Shown: piece by piece, positions 16,197 through 33,975 of the stretch | Position numbering within the stretch: position 1 is the first letter of the stretch | Layout of the letters: every line of letters starts with the position of its first letter | The notes under the pieces: model-generated | What the model saw: only the letters and a program-made list of their open reading frames with translations | Told to the model about the DNA's origin: nothing | Databases searched by the model: none | NCBI GenBank assembly: GCA_003216975.1 | Contig: QCHY01000016.1 | Location: 1 to 41,726 of the forward strand | Direction of reading: 5' to 3' | Source: Prochlorococcus sp. AG-402-I20 | GTDB lineage: Bacteria > Cyanobacteriota > Cyanobacteriia > PCC-6307 > Cyanobiaceae | DNA length: 41,726 bases | Position numbers and translations under genes: made by a program

Positions 16197-16994
16197 CTAA
16201 AGCAAAAAAGGTAGCCTTTTCCCTTCAAAGCTAAGTAATCTAATAGTAAAGAAAAGTCCAATGAAATTAAAAATTAAAAGTACAAGTGAATTCTGATAAT
16301 TTATGGTGCCATTAATGATACTCACTCTTAGAGGATCTAATATCTGATAAATAAAATTTAAATTTGTAATCCATCCTAAAGAGCCTAGACTTTCTTTCCG
16401 ATACAATATCGGTGAAGTAAGAAAAACTAACTGAAGAACTATAGGAACCAATTGAGCAATATCAGTAAAGCGAACACTAATCAAACAAACTATTACAGGA
16501 AACCAATATATAAAAATAAATAAATTAAGTAACGGTATCCATGAATATAATAATAAATTACTTATCAATTCAGATTGAATAAAAAGGAATACAAAAAAGA
16601 CTAATAAAAAAGACTGAAGAAATGTTTGTAATTGAAAAGACCACTCTTCTAAAGTATAAAAAATTGGTTTAAGATTCATATTCTTAATATTAGAAGAATT
16701 ATGTAAAAAAAGATTAGGCGAATTAGAAATTGAGGCACTGATTGTATTCCAAACAACTAAGCCAAATCCCAAATATATAAAATAAGACTTAAAATCTTCA
16801 ACTGAAAAAACTGTGCCATAAACAATTCCTAATGTTCCTATTGATAATAAATTTGAAAAGCCAAGCCAAAAACTTCCTAATGTAGTTCTTGCAAACCTTG
16901 CTCTTGATCTTGAGCTAGCTGTATACCACCAGGCTTTCCTAGTTTTAAAAGCAAATTTAAAATTATCCAATAACATTTTTGCGATAATAGTCAT
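16197..16994 (-). CDS. Polysaccharide ABC exporter permease (Wzm/TagG type)
   Basis: A 265-residue ABC-2 type membrane subunit. A basic cytosolic N-terminus (RSRARFARTTLGSFWLGFSN) matches the RYRRSxLGxxW region before the first helix in KpsM/Wzm/TagG proteins. About six hydrophobic helices follow, with the typical FLTSPILYRKE and DPLRVSIIN segments. It would move a completed lipid-linked glycan across the inner membrane. The start overlaps the end of the ATPase gene by 32 bp (14 bp if the ATG at codon 7 is used), which implies translational coupling. The polymer exported is unknown; O-antigen or another surface glycan is likely. Confidence 0.88.
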   Translation of the reverse strand: MTIIAKMLLDNFKFAFKTRKAWWYTASSRSRARFARTTLGSFWLGFSNLLSIGTLGIVYGTVFSVEDFKSYFIYLGFGLVVWNTISASISNSPNLFLHNSSNIKNMNLKPIFYTLEEWSFQLQTFLQSFLLVFFVFLFIQSELISNLLLYSWIPLLNLFIFIYWFPVIVCLISVRFTDIAQLVPIVLQLVFLTSPILYRKESLGSLGWITNLNFIYQILDPLRVSIINGTINYQNSLVLLIFNFIGLFFTIRLLSFEGKRLPFLL

Positions 16995-18339
16995 GAGTAT
17001 GATAGTAATTCAAGGCAGCATCTAAAGGACCATCATATGCAATTGAGCCATGGCTAAAAACAATACCTCTATCACAAAACTGCTTTAAAAGTTCTTCAGA
17101 ATGACTGGCTAAAAACAAGGTTGCTGCAGATTCCATAAATTCTTTCATTCGTTCTTCAGCTCTATCACAAAAATCTGCATCACCAGTTCCAAAACCTTCA
17201 TCTATTGCCAAGCAATCATGTGGACTCGAAGTAAGAATTGAAAAAATTAATCTTGCTGACATTCCCTCACTATAAGTTTTTATAGGTAATGAAATATATG
17301 AACCAAGACCAGAAAATTCTATGATTTCATTCAAGAAAGATTCGAATCCTTTTAAATTATGATTTATGAGTAAATAATGTGCTTTACAGGCGTCAATTCC
17401 AGAAAGTTCTGAACTAGTCAGAAAAGTCTTTTGAAGCATTGGATATACTTCTACTAAAACATTAATATTTCCAGTCGTAGGTAAATAAATACCCGAAATC
17501 AACCTTAAGAAACTACTTTTACCAGAACCATTATGACCTATTAATCCCACTCTTTCTCCTTTCATAATAGTCAAATTGATATTATTTAAAGCAATGATAG
17601 TAGTTCTATTTTTTGATTGATCTAATGCTCCACCAGTAATATTAATCACTTTATTTGTAAATCTCTTTGTTAATGATCTACTCTCTGACTGATAAATAGG
17701 AATAGAAAGTGAAAGGTCTTTAATTTCTATAGCTGGTTGATTTAATATATTGATTGAAGCATCAGACAATGAGAAAATCATATTATCAACCTGTTCAATA
17801 GATGCTTTCTCATCAGTAATATGATTCAGAAAATTAGATACTCTAATAAACGCATTACCTGATATCCAAGGAGATATTGAATCGGGTTTGTACAAATTAA
17901 TCAAAGTAATACTCTTACTTATTTGTTTAGTAAATAGTTCTGCTGCTGAAATTTTATTTTGTAATACATGAATATCCCTTTTTTCTTGCTCAGATTGAAC
18001 AAAATAGGGTTTTTTATTTGAAGAAACTAAATCATATACGATGTCTGAAATTTGATAGTTATGGTTGTTAACCATAACTATCCAATGATTAAAACCTTCA
18101 AAATCGGCTTTTCTATTATATAGATTTAAATATACTTTATTAATTTTGAAATCAAAAGACTTATCAAAAGAAATATATTTTGTATACTCATCTTGTCTGG
18201 ATAATTCATTAGATATTTCTCTTAAAGTTAGTGAATCATTAAAACGTGAAAGCCAATAATTTATCCCCGATGGATCTCCTGGTCTTCCAAAATATGCAAT
18301 GTATAATTTTTGCAAGTCATTCGATCCAATATTAATCAT
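16963..18339 (-). CDS. Polysaccharide ABC exporter ATPase with N-terminal DUF4214-type domain
   Basis: A 458-residue fusion. The C-terminal part (about 204-455) is a Wzt/KpsT/TagH-class nucleotide-binding domain: Walker A GHNGSGKSS (268-276), signature YSEGMSAR (356-363, the polysaccharide-exporter version), Walker B CLAIDE (376-381) and H413. The N-terminal part holds two DUF4214-type units, LYIAYFGRPGDPSGINYW (12-29) and VYLNLYNRKADFEGFNHW (69-86), then a helical linker. The unit is the one found in the metalloprotease and in the giant exoprotein nearby. The C-terminal carbohydrate-binding domain of O9a-type Wzt is absent. The gene starts 23 bp after the secA stop. Confidence 0.9.
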   Translation of the reverse strand: MINIGSNDLQKLYIAYFGRPGDPSGINYWLSRFNDSLTLREISNELSRQDEYTKYISFDKSFDFKINKVYLNLYNRKADFEGFNHWIVMVNNHNYQISDIVYDLVSSNKKPYFVQSEQEKRDIHVLQNKISAAELFTKQISKSITLINLYKPDSISPWISGNAFIRVSNFLNHITDEKASIEQVDNMIFSLSDASINILNQPAIEIKDLSLSIPIYQSESRSLTKRFTNKVINITGGALDQSKNRTTIIALNNINLTIMKGERVGLIGHNGSGKSSFLRLISGIYLPTTGNINVLVEVYPMLQKTFLTSSELSGIDACKAHYLLINHNLKGFESFLNEIIEFSGLGSYISLPIKTYSEGMSARLIFSILTSSPHDCLAIDEGFGTGDADFCDRAEERMKEFMESAATLFLASHSEELLKQFCDRGIVFSHGSIAYDGPLDAALNYYHTHDYYRKNVIG

Positions 18340-18362
18340 ATGAATAAGTTAACTAGTTAGGT

Positions 18363-21197
18363 TTAAGCTTCTACTTCCTTTTTGGCTGGTTGAAACATAA
18401 ACATAGAGTAAATTACATTTCTTCTCATATTTATCATCATATCTAAAAACATATCATAACCTTCATTTTTATATTCAATTAATGGATCTTTTTGCCCATA
18501 TCCTCTTAAGCCGACTGATTCTCTTAATGAATCCATAGACTGTAAATGTTCTCTCCAAAGGGTATCTAATTGCTGAAGTATGAAGAATCTTTCAGCTTGC
18601 CTCATTATTCCTGGATGAGTTTGTTCCACTTGAGCTTCTTTAAGATCGTAAGCATTTCTTAACTGCTCTTTCAAAAAATCTTTTAATTCATTTTTATTTA
18701 AGCCAAGTAAATCTTTAGGATTAAGATCATCCAATAAATAGATAAATTCTTTTACTTTTGATACTAAATTTGTCAAGTCCCACTCTTCTGGTGGCAAATC
18801 CTCATTAACATAAGCTTCTACTATTTCCTCCATGGTTCTTTGCCCATATCCAATAACTTGATTTTTTAACTCTCTGCCATCTAATACTCTTCTTCTTTCT
18901 GAATAAACAGCTTTTCTCTGATTATTCATTACTTCATCATATTCAAATATTTGTTTTCTAATATCATAATAATAAGTTTCAACTTTCTTTTGAGCTCCTT
19001 CTAAAGAACGAGTAAGCATTCCAGACTCAATAGGCATATCCTCTTCAACGCGAAAAGCATTCATCATTCCAGCAACTCTATCTCCTCCAAAAATGCGTAG
19101 AAGATTATCTTCTAATGATAAAAAGAAACGCGTACTGCCTAGATCACCTTGACGACCAGCTCTACCTCTTAATTGATTATCAACCCTCCTAGACTCATGG
19201 CGTTCAGTGCCAATTACATGGAGACCCCCTACCTCACGAACTTTTGCTTCCTCTTGACTTAAGACCATTTCATATTCTTTTTTAATTAGTTGTATTGCAT
19301 GCCTCAATGCCTCTATATTTTTATCCTTTGTAGGCGTTTTTTCAGCAGCAGTTGCAATAAAATCATCTAGCTCAATTGAACTAAGAGCTCTATCTCCCCA
19401 TTCTTTAACTAATTTTGAAGATAATGAAACCAGTTTCTGTTCGGTATCATCAGTGAGCAAAACTGGAAAAATATTCTTCAAAGATACAGTTTGAATATTT
19501 TGTTTATTCTTGGAATTCTTATCATCAGTTTCCGCAAATCCAACTGACTGAGAATTCCGTTGTAAAGGTATTGGAGGTTTATGACCCTCTTCTGGTTTGA
19601 TTAAACGGGAACTAAGAATCTCTTTGATTTTCAATCTTGCCATGTAGTCGCTATTACCACCAAGAATAATATCTGTTCCTCTTCCAGCCATATTAGTAGC
19701 AATAGTGACAGCTCCTGATCGTCCCGCTTGAGCAACTATTTCAGCTTCTCGTTCAACATTTTCAGGTTTTGCATTGAGTAAGTTATGGGGTATTTCTTGT
19801 TCTGACAAAAGAGTACTCAATAGCTCACTTTTCTCAACACTTGTAGTACCTATAAGAACAGGTCTTCCTTTTTTGTGAATGTTAGCTGTTTCTTTTGCTA
19901 CTGCTCTCCATTTCCCTGATTCAGTTTTAAAAACTTGATCAACCCAGTCCTCTCTTGAAATTTTCCGATTAGTAGGAACAACGGTAGTTTCTAATTTATA
20001 TGTTTTTTCGAATTCAACTTCTTCTGTTTTTGCAGTTCCTGTCATCCCGGAAAGTCTGGGATAAAGAAGAAAGAAATTTTGATATGTAATTGAAGCTAAA
20101 GTTTGTGTTTCTGGTTGAATAGGAAGATTTTCTTTGGCTTCAATGGCTTGATGTTGGCCATCACTCCATCTTCTACCAGGCATAACTCTTCCGGTAAATT
20201 CGTCAACAATTACTGCTTCATTTTTACGAACTATATAATTCACATCTTTAATGAAAAGCTCTTTAGCCTTTAATGCATTAGTGACATAATGAGCCCAAGG
20301 ATCTTTAGGATCGAATAAATCTTTAACCTTTAAGAGTTCTTCAGTTTTAGCAAAACCTTCATCAGTAAGAATACAACTTCTTTGTTTTTCATCTACTTCA
20401 TAATCTCCCTCAGGATCAATTCCATCTTTACTTGTATCAAGCGCTTTTTTTAATTTTTCCACAACTGCAGCCGCTTGTTGGTATTTTTCTTGAGGACGCT
20501 CTACCTGTCCAGAGATTATCAAGGGAGTTCTAGCCTCATCTATCAAAATTGAATCAACCTCATCAATTACACAAAATTGAAAATCTCTTTGAACAATTTC
20601 GGATTTATCAGCAGCCATATTATCTCGCAAATAATCAAAGCCCAATTCAGAGTTAGTTGCATAGGTAATATCACATTCATAATTCTTTTTTCTTTCTGAG
20701 GGTGACATTGCTTGTTGAACCAAGCCAACACTGAGTCCAAGAAAACGATGTATTTGTCCCATCCATTCGGCGTCTCTGCGTGCGAGATAATCATTCACAG
20801 TCACAACATGAACACCTCTACCAGTTAAAGCATTTAAATAACTGGGCAAAGTAGCGACTAATGTTTTACCTTCTCCGGTTTTCATCTCAGCAATTTGTCC
20901 TTCATGTAAAACCATTCCGCCTATAAGTTGGACATCAAAATGCCTCATACCCAACACTCTTCTTGAAGCCTCTCGAACTACTGCAAATGCTTCAGGAAGT
21001 AAATCGTCTAACAATGACAATTGTTCATCAAAAGAACTGGTCTTCTGTAGCTTGCTCCGAAATAAAGTGGTTCGAGATCGCAAATCTTCATCACTTAAAA
21101 GAAGCAAGTCCTCTTCAAAAATGTTCACATCAGATACGAGGGGAGAATATTTTTTAAGCTTCCTTGTATTGGGATCTCCTAGTAACTTTGCAAACAT
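18363..21197 (-). CDS. secA: Preprotein translocase ATPase SecA
   Basis: A 944-residue SecA that drives proteins through SecYEG (and, in cyanobacteria, into thylakoids). Motifs are [20 protein letters not shown] (Walker A), [20 protein letters not shown] (Walker B/DEAD), [26 protein letters not shown] and [20 protein letters not shown] with RGRAGRQGD. It carries the cyanobacteria-type insert around residues 500-600 and ends in [12 protein letters not shown], without the C-terminal zinc-finger of E. coli SecA. A -10 like TATAAT lies on the minus strand at 21220-21225. The two polysaccharide-exporter genes follow closely. Confidence 0.97.
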
Positions 21198-21219
21198 CTA
21201 TGTTTATATCAGTTCACTG

Positions 21220-21225
21220 ATTATA
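21220..21225 (-). promoter_or_regulatory. Putative secA -10 box (TATAAT)
   Basis: A consensus TATAAT on the minus strand lies 22 bp before the secA ATG, predicting a very short leader. No convincing -35 was found. The surrounding 244 bp gap between secA and gmd is strongly AT-rich, so a chance match is possible. Confidence 0.35.
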
Positions 21226-21440
21226 TAATATTGCATTAAAAGCTACGATATTAATAGAATTAACAAATCTAATTTAGAATCTGATTTATATTATTTCTAA
21301 TTAAATAGAATAATAATCGCAGTTGCATTAATAGATATTCTATTTTTTAAAATCACACAAAGGGAAAAATCTTTTTAAATAGATGATTAAGCTCTAAATA
21401 CCTCGTACAGTAAGATTAACCTGCAACGAGATCAGAAAGG

Positions 21441-22490
21441 GTGAGTCAAAGCAAAACAGCACTAATTACAGGCATTACCGGTCAAGACGGAAGCTATCTT
21501 GCCGAACTACTGATTAGCAAAGGTTATATTGTTCATGGAATCATAAGAAGATCTAGTCAGTTCAATCAAAAATTAATAAAAGATTTAGTTAAAACTTACG
21601 AAAATAAGCAATTATATCTTCATTATGGAGATCTTACAGATAGCCCAAACATACTGAGAATTATTAAAGAAATTAAACCAGATGAAATATATAATTTAGC
21701 GGCACAAAGTCATGTCAAAGTTAGTTTTGATATGCCAGAATATACTGCAGAAGTAGATGCTCTGGGGCCTCTACGAATTCTTGAAGCAGTAAGGATATTA
21801 GGAATGAGTGAAAAAGTTAAAATTTATCAAGCTAGCACGTCAGAACTTTTTGGAAAAGTTCAAGAATCACCGCAATCAGAAACAACTCCTTTTTATCCAA
21901 GAAGTCCTTATGGAGTAGCAAAGTTATATGCTTATTGGATTACTATTAATTATCGAGAAGCGTATGGGATGTTTGCTTGCAATGGCATCTTATTTAATCA
22001 TGAGTCTCCCCGAAGAGGAGAAACATTCGTAACTAGAAAAATTACACTTGGGCTTTCTCGTATTGCTGTAGGCAAGCAAGAATATTTAAGTATGGGAAAT
22101 TTAGATTCTTTACGTGATTGGGGGCATGCAAAAGATTATGTAGAAATGCAATGGAGAATGCTTCAACAGGAAAAAGCTGAAGACTATGTCATCGCAACTG
22201 GTCGAATGACATCTGTTAGGAAATTCATTGAAATGTGTGCAGAAGAACTAAAATGGGGAGGTATTTCCTGGGAGGGGGATGGGCTAAATGAAATAGGTAG
22301 AAGAAAAGATACTGGAAAATTAGTAATAAAAATAAATCCTAAGTTCTTCCGTCCCGCAGAAGTTGAAAACTTACTAGGAGATGCTTCTAAAGCAAAGAAA
22401 AAAATTGGTTGGGAACCAACTAAGACATTAAAAGAATTAATTGCTGAGATGATTGAATATGATCTGAAAATAGCTAAGGAAAAATTATAA
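21441..22490 (+). CDS. gmd: GDP-mannose 4,6-dehydratase
   Basis: Converts GDP-D-mannose to GDP-4-keto-6-deoxymannose, the branch point to GDP-rhamnose, GDP-fucose or GDP-perosamine. The 349-residue SDR enzyme has the nucleotide motif GITGQDGS (11-18), [13 protein letters not shown], and the catalytic set T133, E135, Y157 and K161 (ASTSELFG and SPYGVAK). [16 protein letters not shown] is the GMD-specific dimer/NADP region. The GTG at 21441 is the only plausible start, because a stop lies seven codons upstream; an AAAGG directly abuts it, which is poor SD spacing. No reductase, epimerase or aminotransferase to finish the sugar is visible in the window. Confidence 0.95.
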
Positions 22491-22556
22491 TAATAATTAA
22501 AATGAGAAAATATCTATCGTACACACACAATCTAATTTCATTTATGGTAACAACAG

Positions 22557-22562
22557 TATTAT
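22557..22562 (+). promoter_or_regulatory. Possible -10 box (TATTAT) right before the metalloprotease
   Basis: TATTAT ends 7 bp before the ATG at 22570. If it is the -10 element, the transcript would start at or next to the ATG and be leaderless. No SD sequence precedes this ATG, which is consistent, but AT-richness makes chance matches common. Confidence 0.25.
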
Positions 22563-22569
22563 CATAATA

Positions 22570-23751
22570 ATGGAAATAACCTATGAAGGAATTATATCTA
22601 ATGATTTAGTAAAACATACACAACTTGTTATTAAAGAAGAAGAGCTTCTAACTTTTTATATTGATAAATCAAAAGGTTATGAAACACATCAGCATTTAAA
22701 TATTGGAAATAATGGGTCGACTCAATTAATCAAAATAATTAATACTAAAAATGTTGGTCATGATGAATTAGAAACAGAATTCCTAAGAAATTCATTCAAT
22801 AAAATTGATAATATAATTGATTTAGACTTCACTGAAATGAATCACAATAACGGATCTATGTTAGATATTTATCATATCAATTACTCAACGACATTCGGAG
22901 AAGGTGTCATTGGTCAAGCAATATCTCAAAGCGCAAAAGAAGGATCTTGGTGGGATATATTTTGGAAAGATAGCCCCATACTTGAAACAGATAATAACAA
23001 TGCTAATTACAATACAATGTTGCATGAAGTCGGCCATATACTTGGATTAAAACACCCTTTTGATGATCCATTTAATCCATCATGGGATTCTGAAAAGACA
23101 ATTATGTCTTATAATATTGGCCCCAATGGATGGAATACATGGTTTTCAAAAACTGATTTAAATGCTCTTATTAAAATTTGGGGAAGGGAAAACGATCTAG
23201 GAATAATTAACTATGAAAATAGCAGTGATCACTATGACTTCAAAAAGTCATTAACTGACAATTATTTTATTAAAACCGAAATTGGCTATGAAGATATTAC
23301 TGGAGTAAATGAACTACAATTCCAAGATAAGTTATTAAATGTAGAAGAAGACATTATTGGAGTATTCAATCTTATACAAGATATAAATAGTATAAATAGT
23401 AAAATTTATCGACTATATAATGCAGCATTTGGAAGATTTCCAGACAGATCAGGGTTGGAATACTGGATCGAGAAAAATTTATCTGGGCAAGATGATTATC
23501 AAATCACTGCTGAATCTTTCATACGCTCATCTGAGTTTATTAATTTATTTGGAGAAAAGGATCATGACAACACAACATACATCAATAATTTATATAGCAA
23601 TATTCTTGATAGAGCGCCTGATCAGGATGGATTTAACTACTGGTTCAATCAAATAAATGGAGGTATTGAAAATAGAAGTGAATTACTAATGGGATTTTCA
23701 GAGTCAATTGAAAATAAAGCAATATTTAGTGAGGAGACGGGTATCTTTTGA
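22570..23751 (+). CDS. Serralysin-like zinc metalloprotease with C-terminal DUF4214-type domain
   Basis: A 393-residue, cysteine-free protein. The catalytic core has HEVGHILGLKHP (152-163: zinc ligands H152, H156, H162 and catalytic E153) and the Met-turn IMSY with M179, the combination of M10 metzincins of the serralysin type. After GVNELQFQDKLLNVEED (245-261), reminiscent of an RTX tail, come two DUF4214-type units, LYNAAFGRFPDRSGLEYW (282-299) and LYSNILDRAPDQDGFNYW (341-358). No Sec signal peptide and no clear GGxGxD repeats are seen. Export by the adjacent type I system is likely but inferred. It stands between gmd and the secretion operon. Confidence 0.87.
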   Translation: MEITYEGIISNDLVKHTQLVIKEEELLTFYIDKSKGYETHQHLNIGNNGSTQLIKIINTKNVGHDELETEFLRNSFNKIDNIIDLDFTEMNHNNGSMLDIYHINYSTTFGEGVIGQAISQSAKEGSWWDIFWKDSPILETDNNNANYNTMLHEVGHILGLKHPFDDPFNPSWDSEKTIMSYNIGPNGWNTWFSKTDLNALIKIWGRENDLGIINYENSSDHYDFKKSLTDNYFIKTEIGYEDITGVNELQFQDKLLNVEEDIIGVFNLIQDINSINSKIYRLYNAAFGRFPDRSGLEYWIEKNLSGQDDYQITAESFIRSSEFINLFGEKDHDNTTYINNLYSNILDRAPDQDGFNYWFNQINGGIENRSELLMGFSESIENKAIFSEETGIF

Positions 23752-23844
23752 ATACAAAATAAAAAACAGCAAAGGTGAAACGTCTTGAAACAATTACTAA
23801 TATAAGCTAATGATCAACTACAATACATCAAAATATGAATTCAA

Positions 23845-24030
23845 ATGGCTAAATTCTCAATTGATGGGAAAGAATACGATTCCGACGATTTAAGTGATTC
23901 TGCAAAGAATCAGTTAAATAGCTTGCAATTTGTTCAACGCGAAATTAATAGATTAGAAGCTCAAATAGCTGTTTACAGAACTGCTTCTAGCGCTTATACG
24001 CAAGCATTGAAAGATGAATTACCCACCTAA
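23845..24030 (+). CDS. Small DUF6447-like protein
   Basis: A 61-residue acidic protein beginning MAKFSIDGKEYDSDDLSDSA followed by a helical segment (KNQLNSLQFVQREINRLEAQ) and AYTQALKDELPT. From memory it resembles the small family annotated DUF6447 in cyanobacteria and some proteobacteria; its function is not known to me. Predicted shape is a short beta-hairpin plus a coiled-coil helix, with no signal or membrane segment. It heads the type I secretion gene set (parvulin, ABC, HlyD), so a role in that apparatus or with its substrate is suggested by context only. Confidence 0.7.
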   Translation: MAKFSIDGKEYDSDDLSDSAKNQLNSLQFVQREINRLEAQIAVYRTASSAYTQALKDELPT

Positions 24031-24117
24031 ATTCAATGAGGCAAATATAAAATCTTTATCAGACTTAATATTTATAACCGAGAGTATAAACATCAGGTTT
24101 GATTGCTATTAATTATA

Positions 24118-24858
24118 ATGGAATCACTAAATTGCTTATCTGTAGATAGTATTAAATTGATTCGTAGAAATCAATTACTACTATCCCTAGTTAGAGGTGA
24201 ACTCATTTACTTAACAATTAAAGACGTATATCTAGAGCCAAAGATTAAAGATAGCCAAATTGAAGCTTATAGAGAAACATTAGGTATTTCTGATGAAGAA
24301 AAAAAAGATCAATGGCTCAAGCAAAACGACCTAGATTGGCTTTCATTTGAAGACTTAGCATTGGAAGAAATGAGAATTAAAGAATATTCGAGAATTAATT
24401 TTGATGATAAAGTTGAATCTCATTTTTTAAAAAGAAAAAATGAATTAGATATTGTTATTTACAGTCTAATAAGAACCTCGGATCCATTTTTAGCTCAAGA
24501 ATTATACCAAAGGGCCCTGAATAATGAAGAGGATTTTGGAACTTTAGCCACACAGTACTCAGAAGGTATTGAAAAGAAGACTCGCGGTATAATTGGGCCA
24601 ATACCAATTCAACAATCTCATCCACTATTGGCTGAGTTCCTTAAAAGTACTACTCCGGGAAAAATCAGTCCTCCTATCCAAATAAACAATTACCACTTAG
24701 TGGTAAGGTTGGAGTCCTATGATCCAGTAAAGCTTGATGACCACATGAGAGAAAAAATGAGCTTAGAACTTTTCAAAATGTGGGTGAACAAAAAAGCAGT
24801 TGATCTAATGCAAGAACTACTAGATAAAACAAAAGAAACAAAAACTTTGGACGAATAA
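24118..24858 (+). CDS. Parvulin-type peptidyl-prolyl isomerase of the T1SS operon
   Basis: A 246-residue protein from the ATG at 24118 (an in-frame TTG at 24103 is less likely). The N-terminal half is helical, resembling the chaperone part of SurA/PpiC proteins. A parvulin domain follows at about 108-203, with DFGTLATQYSEGI, RGIIGPIP and GKISPPIQINNYHLVVRLES. No signal peptide or lipobox is seen, so it should be cytosolic, unlike SurA or PrsA. The stop is one base from the ABC transporter ATG (TAAAATG), implying coupled expression. It may keep large type I substrates unfolded or proline-competent before export. Confidence 0.85.
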   Translation: MESLNCLSVDSIKLIRRNQLLLSLVRGELIYLTIKDVYLEPKIKDSQIEAYRETLGISDEEKKDQWLKQNDLDWLSFEDLALEEMRIKEYSRINFDDKVESHFLKRKNELDIVIYSLIRTSDPFLAQELYQRALNNEEDFGTLATQYSEGIEKKTRGIIGPIPIQQSHPLLAEFLKSTTPGKISPPIQINNYHLVVRLESYDPVKLDDHMREKMSLELFKMWVNKKAVDLMQELLDKTKETKTLDE

Positions 24859-24859
24859 A

Positions 24860-27802
24860 ATGACAGAGAAAGTATCTATAAACTTAAACTCAATTGTTGC
24901 CTTTAAAAACATAAGTCCATCTGCGATAAAAAATATAGGTGAAAATAGTGAACTTCTAAAATATTCATTAGGACAACCAATTTGTGACAATATTATTCCA
25001 AATAAAATTTTAATTATTTTAAGTGGAAAGGCAAGACTACTCAATAAAGATAATGTAGGAATAAATACAACAGCCATAATTGGTCCAAATACATTTATTG
25101 GACTTGCATCTATTTTAAATGCTAAAGGTTGTGAATTAGTATCTGCAAGTGAAGAGGTTGTGGCACTTGCTATACCAGATAAATTAATCCTTAATCTTTA
25201 TAAAGAAGAAATAAATTTTAAGAAGTGGTGTAATGAAAATATACAACCAGCAGAAGTTCAAGAACTTGCCATTAATTTACACAAAAGATATGCAAAAAAT
25301 GACTATGATTTAAAAAAATGTATTGAACTAATTCATACAAATTTACAGTTAGAGATCTTTGAAGACAATGCTTCATTCAAATCAAAAAACAACTATATTC
25401 ATATAATTGGAAGTAGCAATGTTATAGAAAAAGATTCTGGAGACATAATTAATAACGAACAGTCAATTAGACTTATAGGGGAACTGCCAGCTAGAGTTTT
25501 TAGTCTTCCAAATGAAATATATAATATTTTAACTTCAAGTGTTAACGACTCACATTCTGATGATATTGAGATTAAAAGTATTTCATTAAATGCAAGCGAA
25601 GGTTTAAATGTAGTATCCAAAAGTGAGGAAAAAATTGGCAAATATAATACTCAAAAGGAATTTAAAATCATCAGGGCTCAAGGTGAAATTCAGGAGAGTG
25701 TTGCTTGTTTACAAATGCTATCTAATTCCATAGATATACCTTATAGAAAAGACACTATTGAAAAAATGTTTAGAGAGATTTTTAGAAGAGGTAAGAAAGT
25801 AAATATCCAACTTATGGGTGAAATTATTTCAACAATGGGGCTTCATGTATATAAAGCAGAATTCAACCCAAGTGTCGCTGGCAGATTACCTATTCCATCG
25901 CTAATTGTTTGGCGGGAAAGCTTTGCGATTGTAAAAGAAAGTTATAGCAATAAATTAGAGCTCATCTCACCCAGTGAAGGTCTAATTGTTTTACAAAAGG
26001 AACAATTTGAAGAGAGTTTTGAGAAGGGAGTTATTGAAGTACTTACAGTAGAAAAGAGCAATCAAACACCTGAAAAAAAGTTTGGATTGCAATGGTTATG
26101 GCCTTCAATCAATCGCTATAAAGGATCATTATTATTAGTGCTTCTAGCATCTTTTGTAGTCCAACTTTTTGGACTTGCAAATCCATTAATGATTCAAATA
26201 ATCATTGATAAGGTCATCAGTCAGAGAAGCTTAGATACCCTTCAGGTGCTTGGCCTAGCCATAGTGGTAATAACTATTATTGGTGGAATTCTAAGTAGTC
26301 TTAGAACATTTTTGTTCCAAGAGACTACCAATAGAATAGATACTAGACTTGGTTCAGAAATTATTGATCATCTATTACGTCTCCCATTAAATTACTTTGA
26401 TCGAAGACCAGTCGGTGAGCTTGGTAGCAGAATTGCTGAATTAGAAAGTATTCGTAATTTCCTAACTGGACAAGCCTTAACAACAATATTGGACGCAGCA
26501 TTTTCAATTATTTACATCATAGTAATGGTGATTTACAGTTGGTTGCTTACTTTAATTGCATTAGGGGTAGTACCTATTCAAATACTTTTAACGTTACTTG
26601 GCAGTCCATTAATTAGAAGGCAAATTCGTGAAGTTGCTCAAGAGAATGCCAAAACTCAAAGTCATCTAGTCGAAGTTTTAACAGGGATACAAACAGTGAA
26701 GGCTCAAAATGTTGAAAGTGTTAGTCGTTGGAGATGGCAAGACTTATACAGCAAATATATTTCAAAATCTTTTGAAAAAACTATTACTGGAACGGCACTC
26801 GGAGAAACCAGCAGTGTTCTCCAGCAGTTATCTCAACTTTTGGTACTTTGGGTAGGCGCCTCACTTGTACTAGCTGGCAAACTTAGCCTTGGTCAATTAA
26901 TTGCTTTTAGAATAATTTCTGGTTATGTAACTCAACCTCTGCTTCGTCTCAGTACTATTTGGCAAAACATCCAACAACTAAGAGTATCATTTGAAAGATT
27001 AGCTGATATTGTTGATACTCCTGAAGAGACTACGCAAGAAGATAAAGCTAAGATTCCATTACCCGCAATTAAAGGTTCTGTAAATTTCGAAGAAATTTCA
27101 TTTAATTTTTCGCCAGGAACACCTAAAGTTCTTAATAAAGTAAATTTAAATATTAATGCTGGTCAATTTGTAGGAATAGTTGGCCAAAGTGGAAGCGGGA
27201 AAAGTACTTTAATGAAATTACTACCAAGGCTTTATCAACCAAGTTCTGGAAAGTTACTTGTTGATGGCTATGACATTGATAAAGTCGAGCTATATTCCCT
27301 ACGCAGACAAATAGGAATAGTACCTCAGGAACCATTGTTATTTAAAGGAAGTATAAACGAAAATATTGCACTTACTGATCCAGATGCTGACAGCGATGAG
27401 ATCGTGAAAGCTGCAAAAATTGCGAATGCGCATGATTTTATTATGAATTTAAAGGACGGTTACAGCACAACAGTTGGAGAAAGAGGAGCAGGACTCTCAG
27501 GAGGTCAAAAGCAAAGAATTGCCATTGCAAGAACCCTTTTAAGTAATCCAAAATTGTTAATAATGGATGAAGCCACAAGTGCTTTAGATTATGAAACTGA
27601 AAGAAAAGTTTGTGAAGGACTCAGACAATCCTGTAAAGGCTCAACAGTATTTTTTATTACTCACAGATTAAGCACTGTGAAAAATGCCGATTTAATAGTC
27701 ATGCTTCATGAAGGTTCCATTGTTGAGCAAGGAACTCATCAAGAACTCATGGCTATAAAGGGAAGATACTTCGCTCTTTATCAACAACAAGAATCAATTT
27801 AA
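24860..27802 (+). CDS. Type I secretion ABC exporter with cNMP-like and degenerate C39 domains
   Basis: A 980-residue HlyB-class transporter. Residues about 10-115 look like a cyclic-nucleotide-binding beta-roll (ILIILSGKARLL, GPNTFIGLASIL). Residues about 270-395 resemble a C39 peptidase that has lost its triad: the catalytic Cys position is E279, the His is S354 and the Asp is S370. It is therefore a C39-like substrate-recognition domain, not a protease. Six helices follow (about 420-700), then the NBD: Walker A GQSGSGKST (775-783), LSGGQKQR, LLIMDEATSALD and the THR switch. It would export unfolded protein directly to the medium with HlyD and a TolC-type porin. Confidence 0.93.
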   Translation: MTEKVSINLNSIVAFKNISPSAIKNIGENSELLKYSLGQPICDNIIPNKILIILSGKARLLNKDNVGINTTAIIGPNTFIGLASILNAKGCELVSASEEVVALAIPDKLILNLYKEEINFKKWCNENIQPAEVQELAINLHKRYAKNDYDLKKCIELIHTNLQLEIFEDNASFKSKNNYIHIIGSSNVIEKDSGDIINNEQSIRLIGELPARVFSLPNEIYNILTSSVNDSHSDDIEIKSISLNASEGLNVVSKSEEKIGKYNTQKEFKIIRAQGEIQESVACLQMLSNSIDIPYRKDTIEKMFREIFRRGKKVNIQLMGEIISTMGLHVYKAEFNPSVAGRLPIPSLIVWRESFAIVKESYSNKLELISPSEGLIVLQKEQFEESFEKGVIEVLTVEKSNQTPEKKFGLQWLWPSINRYKGSLLLVLLASFVVQLFGLANPLMIQIIIDKVISQRSLDTLQVLGLAIVVITIIGGILSSLRTFLFQETTNRIDTRLGSEIIDHLLRLPLNYFDRRPVGELGSRIAELESIRNFLTGQALTTILDAAFSIIYIIVMVIYSWLLTLIALGVVPIQILLTLLGSPLIRRQIREVAQENAKTQSHLVEVLTGIQTVKAQNVESVSRWRWQDLYSKYISKSFEKTITGTALGETSSVLQQLSQLLVLWVGASLVLAGKLSLGQLIAFRIISGYVTQPLLRLSTIWQNIQQLRVSFERLADIVDTPEETTQEDKAKIPLPAIKGSVNFEEISFNFSPGTPKVLNKVNLNINAGQFVGIVGQSGSGKSTLMKLLPRLYQPSSGKLLVDGYDIDKVELYSLRRQIGIVPQEPLLFKGSINENIALTDPDADSDEIVKAAKIANAHDFIMNLKDGYSTTVGERGAGLSGGQKQRIAIARTLLSNPKLLIMDEATSALDYETERKVCEGLRQSCKGSTVFFITHRLSTVKNADLIVMLHEGSIVEQGTHQELMAIKGRYFALYQQQESI

Positions 27803-27803
27803 A

Positions 27804-28991
27804 ATGATAAAAGAAAAAGCAAAAAAAGAATTAGAAATGAATAATTTAATTAATTATTTATTCAAAACTATACCTTTAAAACCTCTTCATTTGATTAAGA
27901 ATGGAAAGGATAAATTCTACACAATAATTAAAAATCAAAACAGTAAACCATCAAAAGATAAAATTGAATCTCTAGAAAAAACATCAAATACTTATTTGTC
28001 AAATTTACTTAACCTCAAGAATAAGAGCTATCTAAAACCAACTCTAATAGTTCAAAATATACAAGATAAAATAGAAAGAAACACTATTGGTAATAATAGT
28101 GTTCTGTTAAAACAACCAAAGTTTTGGGCAAAGGCAATTACTTGGGTATTAATGAGTGGAACCGGTTTTGGAATTGCATGGCTCTCATTAGCAAAAACTG
28201 ATGAAGTAGTTATATCAAGAGGAAAGCTTGAGCCAATAGGGGGAGTAGTTGAAGTTCAAATGCCAATAGCAGGGGTAACTAAAGAGATACTCATAACTGA
28301 GGGTGAAGAAGTTGAGAAAGGACAACTTTTAATTCGGCTTGATACTGATATATCCAATGCAGAAAATGAAGCAATTAAAAAAGCCATATCTATAAACGAA
28401 AATATACTTGAAAAACTACGTTTTTTAAGCTTAGAAGGAGCAGTATCAGAATTACAAGTGCTTCAACAAGAAACTAAAGTTATTGATCTTAGAAGTCAAA
28501 TGAAAACAAATTTAGTTAAACTTAAATATCAAGAAATTGTTTCTCCAATAGACGGGATCGTGTTTGAACTCAATCCTAAAGGTCCTGGATATGTTGCACA
28601 GACAAGTGAACCGGTATTAAAAATCGTGCCAATGGAAAACTTACACGCAAAAGTTGAAATTGACAGTAGAACAATTGGATTCGTAAAGACCGGAAAATCT
28701 GCTGAAATAAGCATAGACTCGTTCCCTGGAAGTGACTTTGGAATAATAAAAGGGAAAGTTACGAGTATAAGTTCCGATGCACTCGAACCAAAACCTTCTG
28801 AAGGTAAAGGATATAGATTTCCGGCCGAAATTAGCCTTGAGAATCAATATCTAAAAGTAAAATCAGGGAAAAAACTGCCACTACAGGCAGGGATGAGTTT
28901 AACTGCGAATATAAAACTTAGAAAAATTAGTTATCTTAAACTCCTTTTAAATAAATTTAGTGATAAAGCTAATTCATTAAAATCAATTTAA
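27804..28991 (+). CDS. HlyD-family type I secretion adaptor
   Basis: A 395-residue membrane-fusion protein, coupled to the ABC gene (TAAAATG again). It has a long cytosolic N-terminus (about 1-107), one transmembrane helix (108-130), a first lipoyl half (141-181), a coiled-coil hairpin (about 182-241), a second lipoyl half starting YQEIVSPIDGIVFELNPKGP, then the beta-barrel and end domains. The hairpin is only about 60 residues, far shorter than in E. coli HlyD. It should join the ABC exporter to an outer-membrane TolC protein; none is encoded here. A strong terminator lies 240 bp downstream. Confidence 0.92.
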   Translation: MIKEKAKKELEMNNLINYLFKTIPLKPLHLIKNGKDKFYTIIKNQNSKPSKDKIESLEKTSNTYLSNLLNLKNKSYLKPTLIVQNIQDKIERNTIGNNSVLLKQPKFWAKAITWVLMSGTGFGIAWLSLAKTDEVVISRGKLEPIGGVVEVQMPIAGVTKEILITEGEEVEKGQLLIRLDTDISNAENEAIKKAISINENILEKLRFLSLEGAVSELQVLQQETKVIDLRSQMKTNLVKLKYQEIVSPIDGIVFELNPKGPGYVAQTSEPVLKIVPMENLHAKVEIDSRTIGFVKTGKSAEISIDSFPGSDFGIIKGKVTSISSDALEPKPSEGKGYRFPAEISLENQYLKVKSGKKLPLQAGMSLTANIKLRKISYLKLLLNKFSDKANSLKSI

Positions 28992-29304
28992 GACGAAAAA
29001 AGGGATAGAAATAAATATAAAAATTAAAGAATAAAGTTTAAAGATAAAAAACAAATAAATAGGTAAAGCGATCAGTGTCAAAGATTCTATAAAGGAATGA
29101 AAGAAGAGTATCTCTCAATGAACAAAACAAAAGTAAGTAATAAGAAAACAGACACAAACGTACAAGTTACGTATAAGAAAAATAGGGAAAAGTAAAGGGA
29201 TCAGAAAAAATTTCTATCAATAAAAATTTAGAACAAAAAAAAACCCCATCATATGGGGTTTTTTATTTGCTTTATCTGATGAGCTCAGATCAAAGATATC
29301 AAAA
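28992..29304. other. Purine-rich intergenic gap between convergent hlyD and exoprotein gene
   Basis: This gap of just over 300 bp is very A/G-rich on the plus strand. Apart from the bidirectional terminator at 29238-29264 and a doubtful 32-codon reading frame at 29097-29195, nothing recognisable was found. Confidence 0.6.
29238..29264. terminator. Bidirectional intrinsic terminator
   Basis: A perfect 12-bp inverted repeat (AAAAAACCCCAT / ATGGGGTTTTTT) with a 3-base loop has A- and T-tracts on both sides, so it can stop transcription in both directions. It sits between the convergent type I secretion operon and the giant exoprotein gene, 40 bp past the latter's stop codon. It is the clearest terminator in the window. 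Confidence 0.9.
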
Positions 29305-32300
29305 TCAAAGGAAATCAGCTGCAACAAGGTTATCTGCACCAACTCCTTTAATAATTGCAAGCTGTGTAACTGTGTCACCAGCGGCCAGAGTCTTAGAACT
29401 ATTAGCAACGGTTTCGCCTGCAAAGTCAACTTCGAAGATACCAGCATCAGCATCTGTACCTGTACCGCTGTAAGCGATAAAGATGAAGTTACCTTGGTTA
29501 GCATCAGTAGTTCTGAATGAAGACATACCAGTTCTAAAGCCAGATTCAGTCAAGGTCGCAGTACCAAGACCTGAATCAATTTCAATCACAACACTAAGAT
29601 CATGGGCGAATGTAGCGTTCTTAACGTTAAGGTTCCAATCATCTAGTGTAATGAAGTTAGCAGCTACAACTGCATTAGTAGCACCGAAACCAGTCTTGTT
29701 AACTGCTGTTCCATCATCATCGTTCTTAGCGGTAAAGCTTAAGTCAAGGACATCGGAAGCAGATACGAAACCAGTAATAGTATCGAAACCTTCACCAGAC
29801 GCAATTTGAACAGTGTCAACTTTAGAAGCAGCAGTTAAGTCAGTGGAAGCATCAGTAATTGTGATGTTATCTTCACCAGCTTTTGCGTTGATGACGTCAA
29901 TACCTCCTCCAGCGTTGATGATGTCAGCTTTTGGAGAACCAGTAATTGTATTAGCATCGGTACTTCCTGTAACAACAGTTCCATAAGTACCGGTAAGACC
30001 ACTTAGATCTATGCTTTCAATACCTGTCTGAACTGCAGTGTCAACAACACCGTTCATTTGAGTGATTTGGTCTGCTTGTGATAAATCTATGTTTGTAATA
30101 CCTAGATTCATAGCGCCAGTAAGATTCAACGTGTCGTTGTCACTGGCCTTTTCACCCATATCTAGGGTTGTTGATGTATTGACAGTTGATACCAAATTAA
30201 GGGTGTCATTACCTGTTCCTAAAGCGATATCGGAAGTTGTAGCAAAGTCAGCTGATGTTCCAAATGTGATTGCTCCAGTTGCTGTTGAAGCGTTTACATC
30301 ATCTAGAAGAGTAGTAGTTGAACCTGATGATCCTCCAAAAGCTACTGTCTTATCACCAACAATATTTAAGGTAGTAAGTTTAGCTGCACTAAGAGCTGTA
30401 GTACCAAATGAGATGTCACCAGCGTTTGAATCAATATTTAGAGTTGTTAATGCGGCAAATGTAGTCGTCTTAAGATCCATATCTGCATCTGTAAGAGCAG
30501 TGCCATTTGTTAACGACTTAGCTCCACCAATGTTCAGAGTAGTAACTTTTGTTCCTTGAGCTGTTGTAAAGACTGCGTTTGCCTCAGCTTCCTGATCAAT
30601 GGTGACTGTTGTGTAAGTCGTTCCGAAAGTCAAATCGTAGACAGTCAAACCAGATGAGTGATTGCCTTTGTTAGTGACGGTTACAGAAGAAGCACCAGAG
30701 ATTGCTGCGTCAATAGTAGTTACATCACCAGATCCACTTCCAAAGATGGTTCCATGGGTATCAGCACCAGTAAGTGCAATAGATGCACCATTAGCCATGT
30801 TGGAAATGGTGACAGCTTCATCAGTAGTACCTGCCTCACCGCCTCCATCAGTAAGTACAGCAAGCTCAAAGCTAGTCAGACCTACTGCATCTCTCATGTC
30901 AAAGGTAACTGCAGCAGCAGTTGCAGTGGTGTCATCAACAATATCGAAATCGAAAGTTTCAATACCGTTTGTGTTAGGTCTTATAGCAGTTTCATTAGTA
31001 ACACCAAGTGATGTAGCAGCCAATATATCTGTACCACCAGCATCAGTAATCTTGATTTCATCAGCAACTAAATCAAGACCGTCGACAGTCAAAGTGTTGT
31101 CAGTTGAACCAAGTTTGACAGTACCTCCAGTTTTAATAGCAGCTGATACTAGATCCAAGTTTGCAGTAGCTCCAGTTGCATCAATTGTAGAGATATCTAC
31201 ATTTGTACCAGCAGTAATGGTGTGAGTACTAGCATCCATTTTTGCTGTCGTTGTATCTGTATCACCACCACCAGTAATTGTTAAAGATGTCAACTTTGCT
31301 GTAGCTGCAGTACCAGCAACTTCGTAAACATGGTCTAGGTAGTGATCACCTGTTGCTGCATTATCAACAGCTGTGTCATTGATAGTGAATGCACCAGAGT
31401 TTGTTGAGAAAACTGTTCCATCTAGTGAAACAGCATCGTTCAACTTAGAAGTCAAGCTGTTTGAAATCTCAACAGTTGTATTAGTAACTCCAGTAGCGGC
31501 ATTAAGAACCATCGCGTTAGCAGAGAAGTCTGTTGAACCCCCTGCATTAGTCATGAACTTAATTGCTTGACCGTCAATATCACTAATTGTTGTTCCAAAA
31601 CCAGCGCCAGCTGGATCTGTGATTTCAACGGTAGTTACACCAGTTGTATTTTTGAGTGAGGTTGTTTTTGCACCACTAGTGATAGTTTCAACTTCAATTA
31701 TTTCTACTCCAGTTGTTGATGGGTAGAAAGTCGCAGCTGAAGCTGAGTCAGCAATAGTTACTCGGTCTGTAGTAGCTGAACCACCTGTAATAACATCCGC
31801 TAATGTAGTTGAACTTGTTGTTGCAGTACCTCGTAGGTCTACATCTAGAACTCCACTACCACCAGTAATCTTAAGAACGTTTGTCTCAGAGTTAACTATA
31901 GAAACAGCACCAGTAGATGTAGAAGCATCAAAAGTGATTACTTCTTTTGCTCTGTCAGCTTCTGCTGTAGATGCACTGTTTGAACCACTAGCTTGAACAA
32001 GATCTAAAGCACTAATTGTAATTGCATTACTACCAACAATATTTACGGTAGTAAGGTCATCACCTGTAAGGGTTGCAATAGTAAGAGTTTTAGCTGCACC
32101 AGTAGATGTGACGACATCAGAAGATGAAATTGTAAGAGTTTCAACGTCACCTGTTTCTGTGACTCCAACTGTTGCTGTGTCGTCAGCTGTATTAACCATT
32201 GTCAAAGCAGACAAGGTTCCATCACCATCAAAAGTCAATGCATCAGCTGTTCCAGAAGCATTTTCCAGTGACATCTTGACAACGTTTAATCCTTGTCCAG

Positions 32301-33975
32301 CCACTGCAGAATCTTGGGTGGAGGAAACGTCTACTGTTCCAGCTGATGGTAAGCCAGTAACCTCGAAAGTAATTTTATGATTTCCATCTGTATCTGAGTT
32401 TGTAAGGACACCTGTAGCCTTATTAGCACCAGTAATACTGCCAAGATCTAAGGACGGAGTTAATGACGCAGCACCAGCAGCAGCAAGTGTTTGATCTGCA
32501 TACTTGACTGTCTCTGCACTAATGGAGTGCTTACCACTGTCCTTAGCATCTAGATCAGAAGCGGCTACATCAGCAGCAAAAACTACCGTATCTGTACCTC
32601 CTCCACCATCGATTGTTTTTGCTGGTTGTGTATTACCGAAATCAGCAATTGTAAGAGTGAATGTATCGTCACCTGAACCACCCTTTAGAGTATCAACAGT
32701 GGCATCAGTTGTTATAAGTAATTTACCAGTTGCTGCAGAACCATCAATTTCAGAAGCATCCTTCAATACAGTTTCACCTAAAGTGAGCTGACCACTTCCA
32801 GTAATAACAATTTTAGAAGTCTCACCCAGATCATCACTTGCACCATCTTCAATTTCGGTGATTGAGTTCTTACCAGTTCCTACAGCAATATTGATTGTTT
32901 CAAATTCATCATCTCCATCACCAATATTAAGAATGGCAGTAGATGCATCATTCTTAATTTCTACATTTGCGACATCAGAGGAACCAACAACAACTGGATT
33001 AGCAAAATCAGCTGTTACATCACCCTTAGAACCATCAAGAATAACTGTTGCATTAGACTGAAGATCGCTAAAAACAACATCTCCAGTTAAGGAGGAAAGA
33101 TAAGAGCTAACAGAAGTGACACCAGTTGCAGAGGTGAAAGTATAAGTCTGACTTGCACCAGAAGTAGCAGTGGTGTTAGTTACCTGGATATTTTCAACAC
33201 CAGTACTATTTAAGATAGTTGAAGCAGCAGCTGAAGGTGATACTGAGATTTTTAATGTATCTGTTCCACCTAAGTCAGTAATAACATCATCTGAACCAAG
33301 TGTTGCACCTGAGGCATTAATGGTGTCGTTTGATGATGTAAGAGTCTTAAAGTCTGTAGATGTAGTTAAAGCAATATTTGTTGTAGAAGTGTCAGCTGGA
33401 ACACCATTAGTTTTTATTGAATTAACGCTTGTAGTTATACCTGCAGCTGTATAAGCTGTATCTTTGTCAATACCTGCTAAGTAAGCTTTTGCAGCAGCGA
33501 TATTATCTCCTGCTGAGAAATCAGCTGAACCCTTACCATCGTTAAGTGGAGTATAAGCAAGAATACCTTCAGTAGTTAGCCTGACTTCAGCTGTGTAAGC
33601 AGCAGCTGCTTCGGTTCTATTTGTTAATGCGGTTTTATCGTCAGAACTTCCAGCATTATTTTGAGCAGCCCAAATAAGGTGAACTGCTATTTCAGCTAAT
33701 TGAAGATTTCCTAAGTTGATTTCTTTAGTCCAGTATGTCAAACCAGTGACATCAGCAGCTCTATCAAAAAGGTTTTTATAGATCTGATTAACCTGAGCTT
33801 CAGTAGTTAGGCTTCCATATACGCTTTTGAACTCAGGTGCTGCATACATATCAGCAGCGAAGGCAGCTGTGGTGATCCCTTTTTCTTTCCAGTAATCTAT
33901 ACCGGTAGGGTCAGCAGCGCGCCCGAAGTAAGCAACGTAAAGTTCTTGGAGTTGGGTACTAGTCGCGTTGGCCAT
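29305..33975 (-). CDS. Giant S-layer/RTX-like exoprotein with N-terminal DUF4214-type domain
   Basis: From the ATG at 33975 it is 1556 residues; a TTG 29 codons upstream would add a non-conserved extension. Two DUF4214-type units come first (LYVAYFGRAADPTGIDYW, 12-29; IYKNLFDRAADVTGLTYW, 65-82). The rest is a cysteine-free, Thr/Ser/Ala/Asp-rich, Lys/Arg-poor beta-strand array with recurring LTTLNI/LTSLTI strands and scattered RTX-like turns (GGSGDDTF, GGGGTDTV, GTGNDTLNL, GGGIDVINAKAGEDNI). The end (QLAIIKGVGADNLVAADFL) looks like a type I secretion signal. It is the likely main substrate of the adjacent exporter and possibly forms an S-layer or surface coat. GC content is well above its neighbours. 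Confidence 0.87.
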   Translation of the reverse strand: MANATSTQLQELYVAYFGRAADPTGIDYWKEKGITTAAFAADMYAAPEFKSVYGSLTTEAQVNQIYKNLFDRAADVTGLTYWTKEINLGNLQLAEIAVHLIWAAQNNAGSSDDKTALTNRTEAAAAYTAEVRLTTEGILAYTPLNDGKGSADFSAGDNIAAAKAYLAGIDKDTAYTAAGITTSVNSIKTNGVPADTSTTNIALTTSTDFKTLTSSNDTINASGATLGSDDVITDLGGTDTLKISVSPSAAASTILNSTGVENIQVTNTTATSGASQTYTFTSATGVTSVSSYLSSLTGDVVFSDLQSNATVILDGSKGDVTADFANPVVVGSSDVANVEIKNDASTAILNIGDGDDEFETINIAVGTGKNSITEIEDGASDDLGETSKIVITGSGQLTLGETVLKDASEIDGSAATGKLLITTDATVDTLKGGSGDDTFTLTIADFGNTQPAKTIDGGGGTDTVVFAADVAASDLDAKDSGKHSISAETVKYADQTLAAAGAASLTPSLDLGSITGANKATGVLTNSDTDGNHKITFEVTGLPSAGTVDVSSTQDSAVAGQGLNVVKMSLENASGTADALTFDGDGTLSALTMVNTADDTATVGVTETGDVETLTISSSDVVTSTGAAKTLTIATLTGDDLTTVNIVGSNAITISALDLVQASGSNSASTAEADRAKEVITFDASTSTGAVSIVNSETNVLKITGGSGVLDVDLRGTATTSSTTLADVITGGSATTDRVTIADSASAATFYPSTTGVEIIEVETITSGAKTTSLKNTTGVTTVEITDPAGAGFGTTISDIDGQAIKFMTNAGGSTDFSANAMVLNAATGVTNTTVEISNSLTSKLNDAVSLDGTVFSTNSGAFTINDTAVDNAATGDHYLDHVYEVAGTAATAKLTSLTITGGGDTDTTTAKMDASTHTITAGTNVDISTIDATGATANLDLVSAAIKTGGTVKLGSTDNTLTVDGLDLVADEIKITDAGGTDILAATSLGVTNETAIRPNTNGIETFDFDIVDDTTATAAAVTFDMRDAVGLTSFELAVLTDGGGEAGTTDEAVTISNMANGASIALTGADTHGTIFGSGSGDVTTIDAAISGASSVTVTNKGNHSSGLTVYDLTFGTTYTTVTIDQEAEANAVFTTAQGTKVTTLNIGGAKSLTNGTALTDADMDLKTTTFAALTTLNIDSNAGDISFGTTALSAAKLTTLNIVGDKTVAFGGSSGSTTTLLDDVNASTATGAITFGTSADFATTSDIALGTGNDTLNLVSTVNTSTTLDMGEKASDNDTLNLTGAMNLGITNIDLSQADQITQMNGVVDTAVQTGIESIDLSGLTGTYGTVVTGSTDANTITGSPKADIINAGGGIDVINAKAGEDNITITDASTDLTAASKVDTVQIASGEGFDTITGFVSASDVLDLSFTAKNDDDGTAVNKTGFGATNAVVAANFITLDDWNLNVKNATFAHDLSVVIEIDSGLGTATLTESGFRTGMSSFRTTDANQGNFIFIAYSGTGTDADAGIFEVDFAGETVANSSKTLAAGDTVTQLAIIKGVGADNLVAADFL

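Follow-up and report, generated by a model that had tools for sequence, protein, structure and literature searches.

Wzm-Wzt systems are exporters of O antigens, and the one of Escherichia coli O9a carries a C-terminal carbohydrate-binding domain. Phycobilisome linkers are binders of phycobiliproteins, and Prochlorococcus are abundant ocean phototrophs. The present analysis concerns a stretch of Prochlorococcus sp. AG-402-I20 DNA (contig QCHY01000016.1, 41,726 nucleotides, called the window throughout), in which a Wzt-like export ATPase, encoded next to a Wzm-like permease, bears at its N-terminus a DUF4214-type domain that it shares with a giant surface-type protein of the same locus. The pair is thus a Wzm-Wzt exporter with a surface-anchor-type domain; no link between DUF4214 and Wzt was found in the open-licence papers searched, and the ATPase fusion is not in print within that scope.

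Four published reports describe the closest systems. The C-terminal domain of the Aquifex aeolicus Wzt reads the methylated end of the chain (PMC9445017), and the N-terminal domain of the Caulobacter crescentus surface-layer (S-layer) protein RsaA binds O antigen (PMC6978808). In segmented filamentous bacteria DUF4214 was named as a domain that probably anchors proteins at the surface (PMC12780176), and in Dechloromonas DUF4214 surface proteins were tied to an enzyme anchored to the S-layer (PMC11970703).

A preliminary description of the window had drawn attention to an 18-residue unit occurring twice in each of three proteins, namely the ATPase, a zinc-metalloprotease-like protein and the giant protein. 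All six strings that it quoted are found exactly, two in each of the genes named (Table 1), and Tyr2, Arg8, Asp11, Gly14 and Trp18 are kept in 6/6 units. Among the 30 non-overlapping open reading frames (ORFs) of the window, the pattern.Y.....R..D..G...W matches these three proteins only, twice each; when all 30 ORFs were shuffled 2000 times with their composition kept, the mean number of matches was 0.0. The proposed membership in DUF4214 was borne out by hmmscan, all three proteins exceeding the curated Pfam cut-off of PF13946 (23.2 bits; scores in Table 1), with two matching stretches in each. The span given for the three genes, 16963-33975, is correct provided that the giant protein begins at the ATG at 33975; its longest ORF begins at a TTG at 34062.

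The claim that these proteins share one module holds for the ATPase and the giant protein and fails for the protease. One profile was made from 22 ATPases and another from 20 giant proteins, found in 19 genomes; when the two were compared, residues 1-195 of the ATPase aligned end to end with residues 1-187 of the giant protein (hhalign probability 100, E 1.3e-47, the hhalign E-values each applying to a single comparison). The likeness first noted is real, and the 18 residues were too short a description, since it extends over about 190 residues. Unit 1 of one protein best matches unit 1 of the other and unit 2 best matches unit 2, with cross-matches between the units as well. The tail that follows residue 108 is not DUF4214, and it matches the tail of the other protein and nothing else in it (residues 108-197, probability 98.7, E 4.7e-16). 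AlphaFold2 predicted 11 helices for the domain of the ATPase (mean pLDDT 90.5) and 11 in the same order for that of the giant protein (mean pLDDT 91.3), the two models being compared by helix order and lengths. Judged by these alignments, the modules of the ATPase and the giant protein are of common ancestry, and sequence comparison distinguishes two modules, not one: an S-type domain in the ATPase and the giant protein, and a P-type module in the protease.

The protease shares the two-unit part only (hhalign E 1.3e-15 against the ATPases and 6.4e-18 against the giants) and is without the S-type tail; a single module for all three proteins was therefore rejected in favor of a separate C-terminal subtype. 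Its Peptidase_M10 score of 22.4 bits lies under the Pfam cut-off of 24, and its translation contains HEVGHILGLKH, an instance of the HExxHxxGxxH motif of M10-type zinc metalloproteases. The protease is a separate case, and its C-terminal module is probably part of the region that ends type 1 secretion substrates, serving secretion or general surface retention and not the binding of a ligand of the ATPase and the giant. The missing tail favors this, as does the occurrence of a C-terminal module of the same type at the end of at least five other proteins of this genome and in RTX proteins of two alphaproteobacteria (RTX repeats in 14/26 scanned ORFs, many of them cut by locus ends). On the other side, the module and the catalytic part of the protease co-vary alike with the secretion ABC exporter (0.65 and 0.64), so the module is not singled out, and between the modules of ATPase and protease there is a weak correlation before correction (r 0.33, p 0.04), although not after it (0.14). 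Six further DUF4214 proteins of this genome (L001-L005, which end in the P-type module, and L010) sit on contigs C13, C10 and C23; L010 (598 amino acids) holds an internal S-type domain with tail, after RTX-like repeats judged by eye.

The best PDB matches of the ATPase part were RfbE (2e-47), TarH (2e-34) and 6amx, an 'ABC transporter' (3e-33) that we take to be the Aquifex Wzt, which places this part closest to exporters of O antigen or polysaccharide and of teichoic acid. With a polysaccharide-exporter-like ATPase and an adjacent ABC2_membrane permease gene, Wzm (16197-16994) and the ATPase (16963-18339) form an O-antigen-type ATP-binding cassette (ABC) exporter. Wzm was found in 33/41 genomes of the genus, including 17/17 of the near-complete ones. 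The carbohydrate-binding domain Wzt_C (PF14524) was not listed for the window ATPase in the Pfam scan, nor found in any of the 41 genomes of the genus (17 near-complete), two of 14 control genomes being positive; in genomes drawn from the family it is present in 19/121, 17 of these above cut-off.

The N-terminal domain is present in 27/27 complete ATPase N-termini read in the genus (22 at first, five more later), two of which have diverged (G025, with unit 1 degraded, and G008). Outside this count stand G003 and G019 (cut by contig ends), G007 (disrupted), G001 and G062 (Wzm cut), and G021, whose ATPase (L098) also bears the domain. Relatives of Wzm in other genera of the family have 53-58% identity. 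Of the 35 family genomes outside the genus that have Wzm, 17 were read as loci, and in 17/17 the Wzt next to it consists of the ATPase alone (ORFs of 249-293 residues, no more than 50 of which precede the ATPase part); in one of them, G525, the order SecA-Wzt-Wzm-CysE-GntR matches the order here. In 43 of 47 non-Prochlorococcus loci the ORF of the module was identified, none of these ORFs containing the ATPase part, and among the loci read the fusion is restricted to this genus. In a careful tree of 70 domains the ATPase domains were monophyletic (support 100/100), and a branch (100/99) set the ATPase and giant domains of the genus apart from the 22 others; a separate clade of the giants of the genus alone was neither supported nor rejected (approximately unbiased test, p 0.54). 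This tree left out three divergent ATPases (G025, G008, G032), and in a quick tree that included them the support for the ATPase group was 93. Because all 27 genus ATPases carry the domain, all 17 Wzt of other genera are bare, and the tree groups the domains in this way, the simplest reading of the sequences is a single fusion in this lineage, in which a formerly bare Wzt would have gained once the lineage-specific version of the 190-residue domain borne by the giants.

Such a fusion might have been merely tolerated, or might serve dimerisation or stability without any recognition role, kinship with the giant then reflecting a chance duplication in a busy locus. The existence of bare Wzt relatives, the degraded unit 1 of G025, the divergence of G008 and the missing covariation described below speak for this explanation, which we nevertheless consider improbable: the domain is kept in all 27 ATPases, two of them recognisably diverged, with a mean identity of 55% over the first 112 residues (22 sequences) and invariant core residues, among them Arg19/Asp22 and Arg76/Trp86, and a dispensable extension of 200 residues would be expected to decay in small genomes.

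Glycan recognition by the S-type domain is, although unproven, plausible and the best reading, and the ligand would be the same for the ATPase and the giant protein. It is drawn because of the logic of Wzt exporters, the failure to find Wzt_C in the genus, the methyltransferase fusions and Wzt-near surface proteins described below, and the analogy with RsaA. That the ATPase shares its domain with the giant suggests, and does not prove, that both recognise the same sugar. The locus as a whole would make, export and use a surface polysaccharide, and we regard it as an even call that the shared domain recognises the exported polymer on both sides of the membrane. A wider proposal is offered tentatively: S-type DUF4214 may constitute a new class of polysaccharide recognition, an anchor that this genus moved from its surface protein to its export ATPase so that one head selects the polymer inside and tethers the coat outside, with the methyltransferase fusions as a second, independent use on a polymer of this kind.

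These DUF4214-methyltransferase fusions (302-309 amino acids; L236, L237, L238) lie inside polysaccharide clusters of three cyanobacteria of other families and are a second kind of cytosolic-type DUF4214 host. The clusters hold Wzm and Wzt with Wzt_C in two of the three cases, GDP-mannose 4,6-dehydratase likewise in 2/3, and glycosyltransferases, Pfam-checked in two. In G502, G525 and G533 an S-type surface protein and a Wzt gene are some 7-22 kb apart; these are all the non-genus family genomes in which an S-type surface protein was found and three of the five with any DUF4214 match. Of the other two, G513 was outside the context reading, and in G521 the protein is P-type and Wzm is 242 kb distant. 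A Wzt with Wzt_C directly adjoins an S-type protein in two gammaproteobacteria, one of them a Cycloclasticus. The alphaproteobacterial survey covered two genomes (DUF4214 in 2/142; 26 of 30 loci) and the cyanobacterial one 28 proteins (two without a DUF4214 match at E 1e-4, of which L198 is probably a wrong ORF), and both are samples and not censuses.

Several observations weigh against polysaccharide recognition, or against a ligand common to both hosts. G525 combines an S-type giant with a bare Wzt, so that such proteins can do without the fusion, and a Wzt-sized ATPase ORF occurred in the fetched flanks of only 3/47 non-Prochlorococcus loci (L122, L154, L155), two of them the gammaproteobacteria just mentioned; Wzt neighbours are thus a minority. 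Between genomes, the ATPase and giant modules showed no covariation (r = 0.00, p 0.46, n = 18; -0.01 with SecA distance removed; -0.04 for the tails), and a shared, strain-variable ligand therefore gets no support; a conserved ligand would explain this, and so would different ligands. For the giant module, covariation was seen with its own secretion ABC exporter (0.62); the glycosyltransferase showed none, either with the giant module (r 0.16, p 0.12) or, once SecA distance was corrected for, with the ATPase module. As for RsaA, its family PF19198 was unlisted for any member of two sets of S-type sequences, of 32 and of 46, with an E limit of 10 (most weak matches being lost to the HMMER filters), it was absent among the Foldseek matches listed for both domains, and its profile score in hhalign was marginal, 0/150 shuffles scoring as high with one profile and 4/150 with another. 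Lastly, the nearest solved relatives of the S-type domains, at weak scores, are phycobilisome linkers, with PF00427 profile matches at hmmsearch E 2.6e-3 and 4.7e-6 (a weak similarity) and Foldseek linker matches of the two domains that are weak as well (top probability 0.91 and 0.96, best E 0.56 and 0.31, TM-scores at most 0.49).

This last likeness raises a rival explanation, in which the S-type domain is a protein-protein linker in both hosts. On the ATPase it would dock the exporter to a protein, for example an enzyme of glycan synthesis or, ahead of its type 1 secretion, the giant protein by its N-terminus, and on the giant it would serve self-assembly or docking to an outer-membrane protein. 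Linkers being the top matches of both domains by structure as well as by sequence, the absent covariation fitting separate partners, and DUF4214 occurring also on proteins without evident glycan context (pentapeptide-repeat and DUF3747 proteins), this has some appeal; but the fold match is itself weak, and the cytosolic-type hosts found are polysaccharide proteins, namely Wzt in the genus and methyltransferases in the three other cyanobacteria. We hold a linker role to be rather unlikely, and recognition of the polysaccharide stays the preferred reading.

By covariation the loci fall into two blocks, one from GntR to SecA and one from GMD1 (the first GDP-mannose 4,6-dehydratase-like gene) to the giant, which meet between SecA and GMD1. 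The ATPase module co-varies with Wzm (0.87), and the giant module with the secretion ABC exporter, HlyD, protease and GMD1 (r 0.40-0.62 as measured and 0.47-0.65 after removal of SecA distance), a covariation with neighbours that can be linkage. The split, near window positions 18363-22490, looks as if the second block had been exchanged between strains. G028, which holds two giants, entered the covariation analysis with the first only.

Homology of the S-type domain with RsaA, considered for an apparent likeness of the RsaA N-terminus, was not established by Pfam, Foldseek or hhalign against shuffles and was kept as an analogy only; the query used was identical in sequence to 6t72. PF19198 was detected in 0/289 alphaproteobacterial genomes drawn, a control Caulobacter being positive, so that no RsaA family profile could be built.

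The first approximately 200 residues of the giant protein of the window align with about 16-17 of 19 other giants, and its residues 501-1200 with none of the 19. A constant N-terminus and a variable body are what would be expected of an anchored coat protein; the first 190 residues would provide the anchor, and the body would vary among strains. Type 1 secretion genes adjoining a large protein free of cysteine, with a conserved N-terminus and a variable body, are suggestive of an S-layer protein and not sufficient to assign one; a surface-layer role and secretion by the neighbouring type 1 system (24860-28991) are proposed. Two N-terminus types of giants, NATSTQLQELYVAYFGRAADP and LTATQLQQQYIAYFGRPGDP, exist in the genus, and the two giants of G028 (3145 and 1566 amino acids) are both of the LTATQLQQQYIAYFGRPGDP type.

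The glycan-gene neighbourhood that had been pointed out proved to be one conserved polysaccharide-export and secretion locus, with the order GntR-CysE-Wzm-ATPase-SecA-GMD1-(protease)-PPIase-type 1 ABC-HlyD-giant-GMD2-glycosyltransferase-methyltransferase (PPIase, prolyl isomerase) recurring in the 23 genomes of the genus read, the window's own included; the Wzm/ATPase side of the G025 locus was covered in a second reading. Insertions interrupt the order in some genomes, and G020 has about a dozen extra ORFs. The giant gene is present in 19/23 loci, the contigs of G009, G013, G022 and G029 stopping short of its place. Of the three DUF4214 genes, those of the ATPase and the giant recur in the locus; the protease is present in 15 and absent in seven of the 22 loci long enough (G009 being out of reach), and was not found in three further ones (G008, G060, G061). 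The methyltransferase of the window is a candidate chain-end methylase. Features of the window are collected in Table 1.

Table 1. Features of the polysaccharide-export and secretion locus, in window coordinates
Feature	Position	Strand	Evidence or remark
Wzm-like permease, 265 amino acids, partner of the ATPase	16197..16994	-	Pfam ABC2_membrane 31.8 bits (cut-off 26.9)
Wzt-like export ATPase, 458 amino acids	16963..18339	-	Pfam DUF4214 29.1 bits, ABC_tran 53.1 bits
ATPase layout			S-type DUF4214 domain at N-terminus, residues 1-~195; ABC nucleotide-binding domain, ~201-458
S-type domain of ATPase, residues 1-195	17755..18339	-	Homology with giant protein N-terminus
ATPase unit 1, LYIAYFGRPGDPSGINYW	18253..18306	-	
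ATPase unit 2, VYLNLYNRKADFEGFNHW	18082..18135	-	
GDP-mannose 4,6-dehydratase-like gene 1 (GMD1)	21441..22490	+	Named from sequence, no Pfam call; conserved in locus
Zinc-metalloprotease-like protein, 393 amino acids, P-type DUF4214 module C-terminal	22570..23751	+	DUF4214 102.7 bits
Protease unit 1, LYNAAFGRFPDRSGLEYW	23413..23466	+	
Protease unit 2, LYSNILDRAPDQDGFNYW	23590..23643	+	
PPIC-type prolyl isomerase	24103..24858	+	Pfam Rotamase 36 bits
Type 1 secretion-type ABC exporter, 980 amino acids	24860..27802	+	Pfam ABC_membrane 184, ABC_tran 122.1 bits
C39-like region of the type 1 secretion-type ABC exporter	within 24860..27802		Peptidase_C39 34.2 bits
HlyD-type membrane fusion protein	27804..28991	+	Pfam HlyD_3 72.9 bits
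Giant surface-type protein, 1556 amino acids from ATG	29305..33975	-	Constant N-terminal S-type domain, hypervariable body, no Cys
S-type domain of giant protein, residues 1-187	33415..33975	-	DUF4214 51.1 bits
Giant protein unit 1, LYVAYFGRAADPTGIDYW	33889..33942	-	
Giant protein unit 2, IYKNLFDRAADVTGLTYW	33730..33783	-	
GDP-mannose 4,6-dehydratase-like gene 2 (GMD2)	34482..35441	+	Named from sequence, no Pfam call; conserved in locus
Large multi-domain glycosyltransferase, 1208 amino acids	35445..39071	-	Named from sequence, no Pfam call; conserved in locus
Methyltransferase, 404 amino acids	39079..40293	-	Named from sequence, no Pfam call; conserved in locus

In the type 1 ABC exporter, about 270 residues ahead of the C39-like region resemble a cyclic-nucleotide-binding domain by eye, with no such Pfam match at E up to 1. 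Some loci of the genus have peculiarities of their own. The Wzm/ATPase region of L167 (G007, a genome 95% complete) is interrupted by stops, from sequencing error or as pseudogenes; the 15.5-kb contig of L084 (G009:C31) is by gene order an inverted self-duplication, perhaps an amplification chimera; and contig NZIO01000065.1 (L092, L110), filed as Candidatus Pelagibacter MED605, holds this Prochlorococcus locus, perhaps through a binning error.

DUF4214 is still listed in Pfam as of 'unknown function'. Its presence on an exporter whose logic is known supplies it with a definite ligand that can be tested, and ties polysaccharide export to the anchoring of a surface coat in ocean phototrophs. 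If the proposal is true, O-antigen exporters can read their substrate by a domain unlike Wzt_C, and one fusion can turn the anchor of a surface protein into a cytosolic substrate sensor.

Among solved structures, the phycobilisome linker domain (PF00427) is the best relative in sequence and fold, its likeness to the S-type domain being weak and the linkers being phycobiliprotein binders. RsaA (PF19198; 6t72) is alike in being large and in having at its N-terminus a helical domain proposed as the anchor, an analogy without detectable family membership of the S-type domain. With the DUF4214 surface proteins described elsewhere, the ATPase, the protease and the giant protein have in common that they pass the Pfam cut-off of the family. 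The Wzm-Wzt O-antigen exporters of E. coli O9a and A. aeolicus are alike in the ATPase family and the adjacent Wzm, in that the ATPase bears a further soluble domain, and in that the locus holds a methyltransferase, named here from sequence; they differ in that no Wzt_C was found in this genus, where the extra domain is N-terminal, mainly helical and of DUF4214 type.

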